From: Antennarius striatus
Lineage: Eukaryota > Chordata > Actinopteri > Lophiiformes > Antennariidae
Assembly: GCF_040054535.1 (NCBI RefSeq)
Contig: NC_090792.1
Coordinates: 1,035,001 to 1,099,000 of the forward strand
Reading direction: 5' to 3'
DNA: 64,000 bases
The notes below the pieces were generated by a model. The model was given only the letters and a program-made list of their open reading frames with translations. It did no database searches and was not told the origin of the DNA. Made by a program: the position numbers and the translations under genes. Shown here one piece after another: positions 22,114 through 60,339 of this stretch; positions within the stretch are counted from its first letter, which is position 1; every line of letters starts with the position of its first letter.

Positions 22114-45005
<22,892 letters not shown>

Positions 45006-47768: not shown

Positions 47769-50752
47769 TCAGTCGTCCTTCTTGCTGCTGCTCCTCTGGT
47801 AGTAAAGCGCAGTGAGCAGAACCCACAGGTTCAGCAGCGTGGAGACGATGAAGCGCACCAGGACTGTGGGGAAGACGAATCGTGTTCAGGATATTCAGGC
47901 GTAGCCGGGGGTGTCTGCATTAACACTTACAGCCGGCACGAAATGAGACAGAACTGTGTTAACACACAGGATACGGGTTTCATCTGTGACGGAGCTCTGG
48001 AGTCAAACTAATTTTCCCCATTTAAAATAAATAATTTTAACCCATTCCAGCCTGGTAAAAACTCCCCAAACCCACTAAATTATGAAAAAAACAACATTTA
48101 ATCACCCAATAGACATAGACTTTACCTATGTACTGTATAATTACAGTATAAGTTATGTAAAAATGATTAAGAGTGAAAAGAGGAGCTACGTCTTCACTCC
48201 AATCATGAGGTAAAGAAAAACAAAAAGACACAACCTTTCTAAACATTTAGTGAAAAGAACATTGACTCTTATTTTTGAGTGAAATAAATTGGAAACACTT
48301 TTGTTGTGGCCCCTGAGGGCCACCGTAGTTCATCCTTGCTCATTGAGCTCCAGACGCGCTGCTACCAGCTGACCTCACAGCTGTTTGTGTGTCCTGTAGT
48401 TTCAGAAACACGTCTTGATGAAGTTTTTTTCCCCTTATCTTCATTTTATTTCCTTTCCACCCAACCGGTCAAGGCGGACGGCCGCCCAGAAGAGTCTGGG
48501 TCCTGCTCAGAGTTTCTTCCTCAATGAGGGAGTTTTCCCCGCCAATGTCTCTGGAGGGTTCAGTTGGGTTTTACTGTCTGTTTAAGCGCTTTGACACGTC
48601 TGTTGCCACGATTAAGCGCTTTATGAATAAAACTTGATTGAGTGAAATCCTCAGACAGGGATATTTATAATGACGACTGATTACAGCCTCAGGATTCCTT
48701 ATGCAGAAACAACAGAACAGAAAATGTCCACTCGTCTTGTGATGCTCATGGAGCACAAAAGACCCCCCCCGCCCCCGTGGGGTCGGTCTGACTTACCCTG
48801 CATGTCTCCAGTTGTCACTGCCGTGGTGTAAATGCGTGCTGGAACAGAGACGATGTGTTCATGACTCATTATGAAGAGACTCAATCATTCATGTAGAACA
48901 TTAACGTTAAACAGCAGAGCAGCGGCGCTCCAGCGAGGGGGAAGTGCTTATAGAGATGATGATGAGGGGTGTACAGATGATCAGATCAGCATGTCTGATG
49001 TAGACCTCACTATGAATGAATGATTGTAACTAGAAATTCTTTTTCTTATTATGGGGTGTTATAGAAATGACACTTACCTGCACAGGAGTAGACGGCCATA
49101 GCCCAGGTGAGGCTGCTCACCTGTCCGGCCTGCTTCGTCCTCCACAGACACTGAAGCTGAGCAACTTTACTGGCTGCACTGATGACTGTGCAGAGGCTCT
49201 GTGGAGGAGAACGGGGGTCAGACTGTTTCTGTGTTCATAAAACATTCCCAGCAGGGAGGTTTTACATTTTTAAGGTTAAAAAGTTTCCACACTTTAAATA
49301 AAGAAAGCAGCTGCAGAATCATTTTGGCTTTAAGGGCTCTGAGTGACACGACCAGATACGAGGTCTGGAAAACACGCTAAAATCCTAATAAGTTAGGATA
49401 AGATAAGTTAGGATAGGATAGGATAAGGTAAGCTAAAATAAGCTAAGCTAAACTTTGACTTTATTAACTGATGACAGTGATCTCTTCCAACATCTTTAGA
49501 GTTTCTTACCATCGCCAAATCTATGATCCACGTCTGCAGTGTCAGCAGTTTCCCACCAACGACAAACCTGAACACATCATGTTAATGTAATAACAACAAT
49601 AGATATGTGGAACACTGATTCTCTTCAGCCCTAAGTGACCCCCCCCCCCCCCAGGAGTCATCAACACAATGAAAGGATACGCCATGATGTAGAGGAGGCT
49701 CTGCTTCAGGCTGCCGTTGTAATACAGGATGAGGAGCAGCAGGAAGACGTCTGAGGACAGAGAGCAGCTGATGACACACGACCGACCGACCGACGCACAC
49801 GGCTACATCTGTTCCTATTGGTCACAAGAAATACAGACGACTCACCCTGAGCGATGAGGATTGGGTACTCCAGGTACGTGGGGGGTGGGTAGTCGTGGTA
49901 CATCTGGTACGTGACAAAAACAACGAACCTGCAGACACATGATTGGAACGTTCAGTTTGAAAGCACTAGCTTTGATCTATGGTCAAAGCTAGTGCTCTGA
50001 AAGCTAGACCGGCATGCATAGGTCAAAGATCAAAGCTAGTGCTCTGACCTACTGTCACTGTTCAAAACACTAGCTTTGATCTATGGTCTTCCTCACACTG
50101 GCCTTCTCCCTCATCTTTCTATCTTACCCGGTTCCTGAGTGTACAAAAGTTGAAATTTGACCTTGACCTAGTTTTCTCAAGGTCGAGGTCATCATCTATT
50201 TTCACCCCCTTTGCTGCCTGAGTCATGTGCTTTTTGTTTCAGACAGCAGGTGTGTTCACACCTGTGTGAATCACAAGGGGTTCAGCGTTGATCTTTTCTT
50301 TGTGACGTCATCTATAATAGTCTCTATGAAGCCACTGGGAACCAGCAGACCCCAGTTGTGTTCACCAGTGGCTTCACACCCCCCAGCAGAGACACCAGTA
50401 TGGAGTCAGTGAAGGCGTGGTGAGTGGTCACCGAGCGTGTTCTTCATCACAACTCTTCCTCAGTCCTATCAGTCATGTGATTTCATTAACGGTCATACAT
50501 GACGTGTTGCAGGAGTCCAGTGCTTTACAATATCAGTAGGGGGGGGCCCTTTGATGTGGATGTGGTCTGAGCTGAGATCTGGTGAACTTCATGTTTCTTC
50601 TCTGCAGGGTAAGATTTATAATATTTATTCTGTCATGTAAGAAAGTTTAGGCTTCGATAAAATGTTCTTTTTGATTAAAAAAGTGTAAACACAAATACAA
50701 GAATACTCAAATCTGACAAAACCAGATGAGTGGAAGAACCCTGTTACACTAC

Positions 50753-54583: not shown

Positions 54584-55705
54584 TCATTTTCTTCTCTTTG
54601 TTCCCTGCACAGAAGCAAACAGACTTCTTCAGACTAGCTCAGAAAAACCATGTGGTGATGATGAAGAGGATTAAGCATTGTTCCACTTACATAGTTTTTT
54701 TTTGATGACCAGTTGGGGTAAAGCTGCTGGTGGAGCTTTTTCTCCTTATTGGCTTCTTTGATATACTTCTCCTTCTCTGTCTTGGGCAAAGAGTTCCACT
54801 ATGGACAAACGACAACACAGCATCATCACTCTACCACACACTGCTAAGATATCTGCTATCACACAAACACGAAGGGAAACAAACAAATGATGCTATTAAT
54901 GCAACAGCCCTTGACTCATCATTTCCCTCTAGTGTCCAGATGTGCCAATGTCAACTTCAAGAACTCAAGGATGATGTGGCTCTTGAAGTCTATGAAGTTT
55001 CTCAGTCATCAAGGTCGAGGTAAACCAAGATCAAAAAAGAATCAACTGGATTTGCTTCAGGTTGGTTGAAGAAGTTTCAGACCTCAGAGATTTCTTCATT
55101 TTTGACTGACTGGTAGAGTCCACATAGTGGAAAACCACAAACAACCCAAACCACCAAGACAATGAGTCGAATTAGGAGTTACCATTCATAAGGGAGTCAT
55201 TATCCCGCCTACCCTCATGTGAGCTGTTTTGGTGAGCTGCAGTCCTTCAAGAAGTCTTAAACATGACATAAACAAGAGTCTCAAGCATCCAGAACTAAAA
55301 CTATTACCTTCTTTGCCAGAGTTGCATGCAAACCACTGCTCCCAGACAGACAGACAGAAGGGTCAGCCAGTGGTCTTTGCTCCCTCAGGAACAATAGGAA
55401 GGCATTTTGAGGCTTCTTGATGTATGTACCATCATCTTTCTTCTCTTTCCTCTGAGGCCTATGAGGCCTCGGAGACCTCAAGTTAACACATAGAAACATA
55501 TCAGAAGGATACTACACAACAGCCAGAAGTTCATTCAGGGTAAAAACTGTCCAGATCAAACTTACAGTTTTGACTCTACTTTGTTTGAAACAACAGCATC
55601 ATTAAGGGGAGCAGGATTGTCTGAGAGGCGGTCCACTGCCATTTCATTCCTTGAGAGAGCGACACAAATATTAGTCACAGAACCAGTGTGAGATGGTCAG
55701 TGCCC

Positions 55706-55769
<64 letters not shown>

Positions 55770-58700
55770 GTGTTACTTACAACATCCCAGCAAATGGCAG
55801 GTATGGTAGACCACTAAGGCTCTTCTTCACTTGGTTTTCCTGGTCCTGGATGTACAAAAAAATAGGTTGTATTAGATAGGCTCCAAGGGTGTCTCAATGG
55901 GAAAAGGTTGTCCCTCCTTTGAATTTTACATTTCGAAAAAGAAAATGAACTGTGGGGTTTAGCTTACCGTTTGTGGAGGAGCAGCTGGAGGACATACTTC
56001 AGCTGGAGGGTGACCATTGGCCATTGATGTCTGGCCATTCTGTGAGGACCACTGACTTAGAAGGTTCTGTTGAGGACCAGGATGGTGACCATTTGCCTTT
56101 GATGTCTGGCCCTTCTGTGAGGACCATGGACTTGACAGGTTCTGTGGAGGACCAAGTTGTTGACCAATGACCTTTGATGTATGGCCATTCCTTGAGGACC
56201 ATTGACTCGACAGGTTCTGAGGAGGACCAGGATACTGACGACTGGCCATAGAGGTCTGGCCATTCTGTAAGGACAATTGACTCGGCAGTTTCTGCGGAGG
56301 ACCAAGTGTTTGACCTTTGGCCATTGATGTCTGGCCAATCCTTGAGGACCATTGAGTCGACAGGTTCTGTGGAGGACTAGGATACTGACGACTGGCCATA
56401 GAGGTCTGGCCATTCTGTGAGGACAATTGACTCGACAGGTTCTGTGGAGGACCAAGTTGTTGACCATTGGCCACTGATGTCTGGCTATTCCTTGAGGACC
56501 AGGACCATTGACTCGACAGGTTCTGTGGAGGACCAGGATACTGATGACTGGCCATAGAGGTCTGGCCCTTCTGTGAGGACCATGGACTTGACAGGTTCTG
56601 TTGAGGACCAAGTTGTTGACCAATGGCCATTGATGTCTGGCCATTCCTTGAGGACCATTTACTCGACAGGTTCTGCGGAGGACCAGGATACTGAAGACTG
56701 GCCATAGAAGTCTGGTCATTCTGTGAGGAGAATTGACTCGGCACTTTCTGTGGAGGACCAAGTTGTTGACCATTGGCCACTGATGTCTGGCCATTCCTTG
56801 AGGACCATTGACTCGACAGGTTCTGAGGAGGACCAGGATACTGACGACTGGCCATAGAGGTTTGGCCATTCTGTAAGGACAATTGACTCGGCAGTTTCTG
56901 CGGAGGACCAAGTTGTTGACCTTTGGCCATTGATGTCTGGCCAATCCTTGAGGACCATTGAGTCGACAGGTTCTGCGGAGGACTAGGATACTGACGACTG
57001 GCCATAGAGGTTTGGCCATTCTGTGAGGACAATTGACTCAGAAGTTTCTGTGGAGGACCAAGTTGTTGACCATTGGCCACTGATGTCTGGCTATTCCTTG
57101 AGGACCATTGGCTCGACAGGTTCTGAGGAGGACCAGGATACTGACGACTGGCCATAGAGGTCTGGCCATTCTGTAAGGACAATTGACTCGGCAGTTTCTG
57201 CGGAGGACCAAGTTGTTGACCTTTGGCCATTGATGTCTGGCCAATCCTTGAGGACCATTGAGTCGACAGGTTCTGCGGAGGACTAGGATACTGACGACTG
57301 GCCATAGAGGTTTGGCCATTCTGTGAGGACAATTGACTCAGAAGTTTCTGTGGAGGACCAAGTTGTTGACCATTGGCCACTGATGTCTGGCTATTCCTTG
57401 AGGACCATTGGCTCGACAGGTTCTGAGGAGGACCAGGATACTGACGACTGGCCATAGAGGTCTGGCCATTCTGTAAGGACAATTGACTCGGCAGTTTCTG
57501 CGGAGGACCAAGTTGTTGACCTTTGGCCATTGATGTCTGGCCAATCCTTGAGGACCATTGAGTCGACAGGTTCTGCGGAGGACTAGGATACTGACGACTG
57601 GCCATAGAGGTTTGGCCATTCTGTGAGGACAATTGACTCGGAAGTTTCTGTGGAGGACCAAGTTGTTGACCATTGGCCATTGATGTCTGGCCATTCCTTG
57701 AAGACCATTGACTCGGCAGGTTCTGTGGAGGACTAGGATACTGACAACTGGCCATAGAGGTCTGGTCATTCTGTGAGGACCATTGAATCAGCAGGTACTC
57801 TGGAGGACCAGAATGGTGACCATTGGCCATTGATGTCTTGCCATTCCATGAGGACCATTGATTACGCATGCACTTTGGAGGACCAGGATGGTGACCATTG
57901 GCCATTGATGTGAAGCCATTCTCTGAGAACCATTGACTCGGCATGTACCGAGGACGAACAGGAGGGTGACCATTTGCAACCAGTGTAGGGAAGTTCACTT
58001 TAGACAACTGCCCTTGCAGGTACGGTAAAAGAACAGCAGGAATGTGGCTACTGGCCAAGGATGGTAGGGTGTTCTCTGCAGACCACTGAGCTGCCAGGTA
58101 CTGTTGCGTAACAAAAGGAAAGCATCTATTGAACACAGTGTTCCGTGTATTGGCCACATCTGTTGGAACATTCTCTACACAGGACTTATCCAGCAGGTTT
58201 TTTGGTGAGGTGGCAGGAGGAGTATTGCTGGAGGATCCTGTTTTGTAGTTCTTGTCAAACTGCTGCTCCTGCATGTGTTGTGAAGTTGCAGGAGGGTTAT
58301 TGCTGGAGGATCCTGTTTTGTAGTATTCGTCTAACTGCTGCTCTTGCATGTGTTGTGGTGAAGTTGCAGGAGGGTTATTGCTGGAGGATCCTGTTTTGTA
58401 GTATTCGTCTAACTGCTGCTCTTGCATATGTTGTGGTGAAGTTGCTGGAGGGTTATTGCTGGAGGATCCTGTTTTGTAGTTCTCGTCAAACTGCTGCTCC
58501 TGCATGTGTTGTGATGAAGTTGCAGGAGGGTTATTGCTGGAGGATCCTGTTTTGTAGTATTCGTCTAACTGCTGCTCTTGCATATGTTGTGGTGAAGTTG
58601 CAGGAGGGTTATTGCTGGAGGATCCTGTTTTGTAGTTCTCGTCAAACTGCTGCTCCTGCATGTGTTGTGGTGAAGTGGCAGGAGAGTAATTGTTGGATGA

Positions 58701-58926
58701 TGTCCACGTTTCTAGGATGGGCAACTCATTTTCTTTATTCCTACTGTCAAATGGATCAGGAGTGCTGAGTGGAGGACTTGGTTCCAAAGGTACATCATTG
58801 AGCCATTCATCATTGCAGTCAAGGCGATCGTAATCTAGATTTGCTATTGTATCTAGGAACGGAGTAGACTTCCCAATATCCACCAACAGATCCTCTTCCG
58901 TCAGGCCCTGATGTGGTACTGAACTC
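54584..58926 (-). CDS. TCF/LEF-like HMG-box protein with long tandem repeats (5' end missing)
   Basis: Six exons on the minus strand, in order: 58926-55968, 55845-55781, 55649-55566, 55476-55308, 54798-54691, 54604-54584. All have GT-AG borders and matching phases, giving 1134 visible residues. The C-terminus is an HMG box of the TCF/LEF type: IKKPQNAFLLFLREQRPL, a 36-codon exon beginning WNSLPKTEKEKYIKEANKEK and ending LHQQLYPNWSSKKNY, and a short basic tail GTKRRK. TCF/LEF has WHALSREEQAKYYELARKER...LHMQLYPGWSARDNY followed by GKKKKRK, in an exon of the same length. Such boxes bind and bend DNA at CTTTGA-like sites. The N-terminal 986 residues are repeats (next entry). No Groucho- or beta-catenin-binding region is seen. 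The first exon is missing: the large exon has no in-frame ATG near its start and begins at an acceptor (TTTGACAG). Function unknown. Confidence 0.85.
54691..55476 (-). CDS. HMG-box exons of the TCF/LEF-like gene
   Basis: Exon 55476-55308 carries the basic lead-in PRPHRPQRKEKKDDGTY and helix 1 (IKKPQNAFLLFLREQR) plus helix 2 (SGLHATLAKK). Exon 54798-54691 carries helix 3 (WNSLPKTEKEKYIKEANKEK) and the TCF-type LYPNWSSKKNY extension. The helix 2 region contains PLADPSVCLSGSSGLHATLA where TCF has a conserved KESAAINQILG-type segment, so the box is diverged but keeps the hydrophobic core and both tryptophans. The 509-bp intron between them (54799-55307) contains only non-repetitive sequence I do not recognise. 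Confidence 0.85.
55707..55767. repeat. (GT)n microsatellite in an HMG-gene intron
   Basis: GT run of about 60 bases ending 13 bases from the donor region of exon 55845-55781. Confidence 0.97.
55968..58926 (-). CDS. giant repeat exon of the TCF/LEF-like gene
   Basis: A 2959-bp open exon. It starts with a unique acidic segment (LTEEDLLVDIGKSTPFLDTI, YDRLDCNDEWLNDVPLEPSP). Then come about seven copies of a 26-residue unit (GSSSNNPPATSPQHMQEQQ + LDEYYKT; DNA 58210-58700), followed by about 28 copies of a 25-residue unit in two alternating forms: SSQNGQTSMASRQYPGPPQN and SSRNGQTSMANGQQLGPPQK, each followed by an (L/V)xSQ(W/L) link. The sequence is low in charge and rich in Q, S, P and G, so probably disordered. 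Four 25-residue units form a 300-bp higher-order block; 57001-57300 and 57301-57600 are identical at all 300 bases. No stop or frameshift occurs across about 35 repeats, which argues for selection on the frame. Confidence 0.85.
57001..57600. repeat. identical 300-bp tandem higher-order repeats
   Basis: Two adjacent 300-bp blocks inside the repeat exon show no difference in any base. A third (57601 onward) matches for about 55 bases after one change and then diverges. A related block precedes at about 56821. Confidence 0.95.
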
Positions 58927-59014: not shown

Positions 59015-59460
59015 GGCAGTCAGAGACTGCAATATCCCATGACACCACTGAATTCAAAATTTTACCAAGACCTTGCACATTTTTGTGCCTCTGGCTTCCT
59101 GAAAATATTGCTTTTTGTTCTATGATTTATCTCATCAGGTTTCAGAGATGTGTACCTAAAAAGGTATAAAAGTGAAAATTTGACCTTGACCTAGTTTTTC
59201 AAGGTCAAGGTTTTGATCTAATTTTTCCCCCTTGCCTCACTGAATATAACCCCTTTTGTTTTGTCTATCTTATACGGTTCCTGAGATATGTGCAAGAAAA
59301 CATGCAAAAGTTGAAATTTGACCTTGACCTAGTTTTCTCAAGGTCATCATCTCATTTTTATCCTCTTTGCTGCCCGAATAATGTTGTTTCATCTTTCCAT
59401 CTGCAAAGGTTGTGAAGATATTTGGTGGATGAACGGATAAACACAGTCTGACAATTACAA
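59015..59460. repeat. dispersed repeat with inverted TCAAGGTCA sites, copy 3
   Basis: Longest copy: CAGTCAGAGACTGCAATATC, CAGGTTTCAGAGATGTGTACC and two successive inverted pairs, at about 59181-59211 (intact) and 59319-59346, then CTGCAAAGGTTGTGAAGATA and TACAATACATCACCGC. The internal portion is duplicated relative to copy 1. Confidence 0.85.
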
Positions 59461-59710
59461 TACATCACCGCTTTGTAGCGGGATGTAATTACATTATATC
59501 ACCGCTTTGAAGCAGGATGTAATTACATTATACCACCGCTTTGAAGCGGGATGTAATTACATTATATCACCGCTTTGAAGCGGGATGTAATTACATTACA
59601 TCACCGCTTTGAAGCGGGATGTCATTACATCACCGCTTTGAAGAAGATGTAATTATAATACATCACCACTTTGAACCGGATGTAATTACAATACATCACC
59701 GCCTCGCGGG
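59456..59710. repeat. 34-bp tandem repeat made of two palindromes
   Basis: About seven copies of a unit that joins ATGTAATTACAT (perfect palindrome) to CCGCTTTGAAGCGG (perfect 14-base palindrome) with a short ATATCA link. Later copies are degenerate (CTTTGAAGAAGAT, CTTTGAACCGGAT). It is an amplification of the end of the adjacent dispersed repeat. Confidence 0.9.
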
Positions 59711-60060: not shown

Positions 60061-60339
60061 TGGAACATGAGAATATCATCCATTGTTAAATGTACTCAAA
60101 AAGGGTGTGATGCTTACTTATTTAGCTGTGTGATTGACATTCTTCACCGGTTTTTTGTAGATTTTCTGCTTCACGTTCATTGTCATATCTAGTTTATATA
60201 TTGATATCTGGATGGCTTTGGTCTATGTACCTTTGATCTATCTACATTTGATCTTACTTGATGTGTCTACCTTTGATCTATCTACTTTTGATGTATATAC
60301 CTTTGATCTACCTCCTTTTTATCCATCTACGTTTGAAAA

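Follow-up and report, generated by a model that had tools for sequence, protein, structure and literature searches.

What kind of gene joins a TCF/LEF-type high mobility group (HMG) box to a long array of tandem repeats, and is that gene still in use? We address this question at a locus of Antennarius striatus that lies within a 64,000-nucleotide stretch of NC_090792.1 (positions 1,035,001 to 1,099,000; G000:C17:1035001-1099000), the whole of which we call the window, and we searched the 548 Mb genome for its relatives. The window gene runs along the minus strand from 60140 to 54584 and is modeled from genomic DNA as seven exons encoding 1142 residues. On balance we lean toward reading it as intact and as a member of a divergent TCF/LEF-derived family that has expanded; its product would be a Wnt-independent regulator, probably gonadal, with an acidic activator and multivalent repeats.

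The gene that the first-pass annotation described between 54584 and 58926, with an HMG box and two repeat arrays, proved to be real. Six exons in that interval have GT/AG ends and join without a break in frame (from 58926-55968 to 54604-54584), and its limits are exact: 54584 closes the stop codon and exon 2 starts at 58926. Exon 2 (55968..58926, minus strand, as are all exons here) holds an open frame of 993 aa that comprises an acidic start, a 26-aa array, a linker, and a 25-aa array. It is followed by exon 3 (55781..55845, 65 nt) and exon 4 (55566..55649, 84 nt), by exons 5 (55308..55476) and 6 (54691..54798, 108 nt), which carry the first and second halves of the HMG box (the latter WNSL...SKKNY) as placed by Pfam and PDB matches and splice joins, and by exon 7 (54584..54604), which encodes GTKRRK and the stop. 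Exon 1, for which the annotation had proposed rapid amplification of 5′ cDNA ends, emerged instead from upstream DNA comparison with two paralogues on C1 and C9. Its coding part (60118..60140) encodes MSITQLN plus two bases of the following codon, which exon 2 completes, and ends at a GTAAG donor; the counterparts are MSSTQLF (C1) and MSGRQLV (C9), with equal shortness, donor, and phase in all three genes. Exon 1 begins ~55 bases beyond a TATA box (TATATAAA, 60193..60200, minus strand), and both fall inside a block common to the window gene, C1, and C9 (73–75% identity in pairwise matches), in which the C9 TATA box is altered (TTATATGAA). Since exon 1 and the TATA box are located inside the window, the gene is complete there. 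A similarity to PLEPSPPLSTP at ~60.6 kb was tried as a second exon and rejected; its position upstream of the TATA box and the lack of a counterpart in the C9 upstream sequence lead us to treat it as a local duplicate.

One of the two closest paralogues, at C1:21.07 Mb (L021), shares all seven exons and their phases (with identical lengths for exons 3, 4, and 6), the TATA box, exon 1, both kinds of repeat unit, and 57 of 75 HMG residues, but its open frame has 621 residues, with nine W-units rather than 28 and a longer basic tail. Its exon 2 frame is 441 aa long and that of C9 is 438 aa, and the first 111 aa of the window gene's open frame are 58% identical to C1 and 52% to C9. In a drift simulation that placed 110 random substitutions (half of the 219 observed differences) on 298 codons drawn randomly from the C1 coding sequence, a mean of 4.2 stops arose and 27 of 2000 runs stayed stop-free; exon 2, simulated at 0.19 substitutions per site, acquired 22.3 stops on average, and 0/500 runs stayed free of them. 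On these results, the conserved exons, and the shared promoter block, a chance open frame within a repeat was rejected. We estimated the ratio of nonsynonymous to synonymous substitution rates (dN/dS) between the window gene and C1 by simple counting with 500 bootstraps. It is 0.365 for the HMG box (bootstrap range 0.165–0.833; 8/500 at or above 1) and 0.71 over all 298 codons (0.50–0.99; 10/500), against 0.80–0.93 in the other segments, so the DNA-binding domain is constrained while the effector part changes almost at the silent-site rate. The fast evolution suspected earlier is therefore seen outside the HMG box (0.8–0.9 vs C1).

The HMG box is of the TCF/LEF type, as had been proposed. It matches Pfam PF00505 (HMG_box) at E = 5.4e-14, and in a comparison with the PDB its best solved relative is LEF1 (2lef, 2.9e-18, 80 residues ungapped), followed by an SRY/HMGB1 construct at 1.3e-10, with HMGB1 entries alone at 0.0074 or weaker. 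Over 75 residues it is identical to LEF1 at 31, to SOX17 at 19, and to SRY at 21, and its identity with the canonical factors (LEF1/TCF7/TCF7L1/TCF7L2) is 31–32/75. A SOX-type box was rejected on these counts (19–21/75 vs 31) and on the PDB ranking; SOX factors share the sequence-specific HMG-box class but lack the YPxWSxxxNY ending of the TCF form, which the YPNWSSKKNY of the window box fits. The 36-codon, phase 0 exon that had drawn attention (54798-54691) is also a TCF trait, as the canonical TCF genes of this genome split their HMG box at the same residue. The gene thus resembles canonical TCF/LEF genes in its ungapped HMG class, this exon, the ending of the box, and a basic tail. The tail had been called TCF/LEF-like, and it is present, but only in short form, GTKRRK and then the stop; in the predicted model, these six residues after the HMG box exon leave no room for a C-clamp.

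What separates the gene from canonical TCF/LEF factors is the remainder of the protein, where an acidic and repeat exon takes the place of effector parts. We searched the whole genome with PF08347 (CTNNB1_binding, 222 positions) at E up to 0.001 and found all 19 matches (19/19) at five canonical loci (C3:26.24, C8:6.28, C13:19.93, C15:14.67, and C21:16.98 Mb), no more than ~60 kb from the HMG exons there; divergent loci yielded none. Exon 2 of the window gene yields no PF08347 match at E up to 10, although a strongly altered form could escape a profile search. With this genome-wide control, the earlier remark that TCF cofactor domains are missing holds for the β-catenin-binding part. A tree of 18 rows and 75 columns set ten divergent loci beside the five canonical loci and human LEF1, with SOX17 and SRY added; its rows did not include broken and incomplete copies, the second arm of each inverted pair, one C9:2.38 copy, the whole C22 cluster, and some other members. 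It joins the window gene to C1 with support of 100 and unites the window, C1, C20, C11, C21, and C17:18.35/18.80 genes at 95, with canonical genes outside, while the C9:2.38, C15, and C16 rows are weakly placed (35–83). The window gene falls outside the TCF7, LEF1, TCF7L1, and TCF7L2 clades. The first-pass annotation had named such a tree among its checks, and the gene is not placed within a canonical TCF orthologue; we rejected canonical orthology on this separate clade and on the five canonical loci found elsewhere, each with PF08347.

How large is the divergent family? Querying the genome with the window HMG part and with the box of another member, we found at least 25 divergent TCF-type loci with both HMG halves. 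Nine are on C17 (1.09, 3.604, 3.608, 5.04, 5.10, 6.90, 18.34, 18.35, and 18.80 Mb), five on C22 (13.5–14.04 Mb), three on C9, two each on C21 and C11, and one each on C1, C15, C16, and C20; one HMG half only was found at four further places, three on C22 and one on C10. Support is uneven, with C9:2.38 (two copies), C15:5.37, and C16:3.25 at E values of 0.03 to 4.2 and resting on local comparison (C15:5.37 is backed by additional searches as well), and one HMG half at C22:13.66 is weak (E 3.05). The loci at C17:5.04 and C9:21.89 have stops within the HMG box. In the C9 paralogue (L022 4401-6191), exon 2 is open, the second HMG exon carries a stop, and the remnant of a further HMG copy lies alongside. 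Three pairs show inverted order: C21:6.58/6.59 (L034/L035), whose arms are 99.1% identical over 2574 aligned bases, C17:18.34/18.35 (L037/L038), with arms 98.0 and 98.6% identical in two pieces, and C17:3.604/3.608. The first two are arranged head to head, and a foldback assembly error is possible for them. Near one lone TCF-like HMG half, ~4 kb away, lies a 420-residue open frame (L049 2562-3821) that resembles a hAT-type transposase.

The upstream exon of the window gene has the composition first described, an acidic segment and two tandem repeat families with ~28 repeats in the longer one. The acidic start (58692..58926, minus strand) accounts, with exon 1, for residues 1–83 and has a net charge of -12. 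Repeat finding and a recount then give about six 26-residue units (NNPPATSPQHMQEQQ-DE-YKTGSSS; 58200..58685, minus strand) and 28 units of ~25 residues with a W/L/F anchor (56019..58118, minus strand), 26 of them regular and two diverged at the start of the array; Tandem Repeats Finder reports 26.1 copies of 75 bp and 6.6 copies of 78 bp. Tallied over 25 regular units (the 26th, of 27 residues, was set aside), the anchor at position 15 is W in 16, L in 8, and F in 1, and it is W in 7/7 C1 units compared (of nine). Pfam finds no credible domain in exon 2 (best E 7.5 among matches up to E 10).

Relatives show that this architecture is less isolated than first claimed. The exon that precedes the box in L034 and L037 has an acidic, leucine-rich start followed by PPAAP-type units, and in L045 the corresponding exon holds a W-unit (DQYLQDEWGEQN). 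The upstream exon ends in APLQTVS in L034 and APPQTVS in L045, compared with APPQT|VS in the window gene. These three relatives fall in the same HMG clade (95) as the window gene, split the box over two exons, and carry PPAAP-type units along with an acidic start (L034, L037) or a W-unit (L045), but have far fewer units than its 28 and a different N-terminal sequence. Of the 25 genome matches to a query of about three C1 W-units, 21 fall in the window gene, C1, and C9:21.89. The other four (E 1.3e-4, 0.012, 0.020, and 0.090, one being that of L045) all lie 0.4–0.9 kb upstream of divergent HMG exons (C22:13.675, C17:5.097, C22:13.690, and C11:20.058). W-anchored or PPAAP-type units were therefore seen in the window gene, C1, C9, and L034/L037/L045, and at four places by weak match. 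The acidic exon of C17:18.35 matches only C17:18.34, 18.35, and 18.80 and two C21:6.58 copies, which implies that the effector exon has diverged beyond recognition between subgroups. Within its upstream exon, L037 (262-1080) carries a separate tandem array of 11-residue units (HCYPPAAPPEV), so repeat growth there occurred more than once in the family. Of the claim of an unparalleled architecture, what stands is length: the window gene has the longest repeat exon among the members seen of a family of ~25–29 loci, while acidic starts and W/P-rich units are shared with several relatives.

The promoter region offers a further hint of how the gene may be wired. Three exact AGATCAAAG sites of TCF/LEF type, in gene orientation on the minus strand (60231-60239, 60271-60279, and 60301-60309), are predicted binding sites 39–109 bases ahead of the TATA box; in C1 a single site occupies the matching position (-34). 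We take AGATCAAAG to be the form used in TCF reporter plasmids; a literature search for it found nothing. Predicted TCF-type sites next to a TATA box suggest that the gene may be auto- or cross-regulated by factors of the TCF type.

The class of DNA-binding domain is assigned by homology, and from it we infer the downstream steps. The HMG box would bind TCF-like sites (CTTTGWW), the acidic start would recruit activators, and the repeat array would let the protein self-associate through many hydrophobic contacts; the factor could then control its targets without Wnt input. Palindromes hold gonadal genes elsewhere, and near-identical inverted pairs and fast evolution are features of gonadal genes; by this analogy, the gene is probably expressed in gonad or egg only. 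A broader and rather doubtful extension is that fishes possess a second, so far unrecognized TCF/LEF-like system. Its ~25 β-catenin-blind factors would recognize DNA in the TCF manner, multiply as inverted and clustered copies, remodel their effector exon as repeats expand, work in the germ line, and be mutually wired through TCF-type sites in their own promoters.

Several observations weigh against an intact regulator of this kind. The gene model itself is predicted from sequence alone. Outside the HMG box, dN/dS is indistinguishable from 1 in each segment taken singly, at 0.80 for the N-terminal segment (143/500 bootstraps at or above 1), 0.93 for the middle segment (236/500), and 0.86 for the linker between the arrays (182/500), and the 25-residue units have a ratio of nonsynonymous to synonymous differences per site (pN/pS) of 0.845 without a clear codon-position signal. 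With values near 1 and no such signal, the sequence gives the repeats no sign of selection. In alignment with 2lef, a Leu in the window box replaces the LEF1 Met that we take to be the intercalating residue, and the basic tail stops where that of C1 continues (GKKKKKRRKKKK...). As for the promoter, the C9 paralogue has no AGATCAAAG site there; the three sites of the window gene are copies in a 15-bp tandem repeat (60216-60336) and so count as one event; and a second trio of AGATCAAAG sites occurs outside the gene, at 49970-50082, within an unrelated inverted repeat.

Could the protein oppose Wnt signaling rather than ignore it? A natural competitor that occupies TCF/LEF sites, cannot bind β-catenin, and represses Wnt targets, like truncated dominant-negative LEF/TCF forms, would account for a TCF-type HMG box without a PF08347 match. 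We consider it fairly unlikely, as the acidic, leucine-rich start resembles an activator and not an empty stub; no repressor motif was reported from Pfam, beyond which no search was made. The long, low-charge Q/S/P/G array and its fast evolution would also suit a structural protein of chromatin or of sperm or egg nuclei, whose HMG box would bend DNA with little sequence choice while the repeats pack. Such a role is improbable for a box of the sequence-specific LEF1/SOX class, not that of HMGB (2.9e-18 vs 0.0074).

Doubt about function leads to a gene that has fallen out of use and is decaying. The tail shorter than that of C1, the dN/dS near 1 outside the HMG box, and the visibly broken HMG exon of the C9 paralogue would all be expected of one, but every splice site is intact and the frame stays open throughout, where drift would leave stops, and the HMG box is constrained between the window gene and C1, although the C1 branch may account for all of that constraint; we regard decay as quite improbable. 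Least credible of all is a canonical TCF/LEF orthologue that merely evolves fast. The TCF-type HMG box and exon would fit, but the tree places the gene in another clade, and the five canonical loci with PF08347 already equal the number published for each of four teleosts. An intact member of a divergent TCF/LEF-derived family is therefore the reading that we carry forward.

TCF/LEF factors are regarded as a small conserved vertebrate set. Table 1 of a TCF/LEF survey gives most jawed vertebrates four genes and each of its four teleosts five (PMC9303524), and section 9 of that survey mentions no divergent TCF/LEF genes beyond the five per teleost. In our open-literature search, no account of a divergent TCF-type family was found among the papers listed, as judged by titles and the beginnings of abstracts. 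A study of cichlids reports two gene copies of 'Transcription factor 7-like 2-like' overexpressed in testis across species (PMC4202336), and these could be members of the divergent family. Automatic annotation may already name such genes, for example under TCF7L1/2 or LEF1. The ~25 extra TCF-type genes found here show no Wnt-responsive part; if our reading is right, Wnt target sites in fishes may be read by factors that ignore Wnt. The family also offers a testable case of fast effector change around the constrained DNA-binding domain of a transcription factor.

Other features of the window include two tandem repeats and three open frames with Pfam matches. Intron 1 contains a 34-bp tandem repeat (59453-59702, 7.6 copies) with a palindromic CGCTTTGAAGCG in each unit, and related copies lie near the C9 paralogue; a 22-bp tandem repeat of 26 copies, 94% matching, occupies 34554-35126. 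The open frames match an SOBP family protein (PF15279, 5.6e-105), a protein kinase (PF00069, 5.4e-31) that resembles ROCK, and a C1 domain (PF00130, 2.3e-6).

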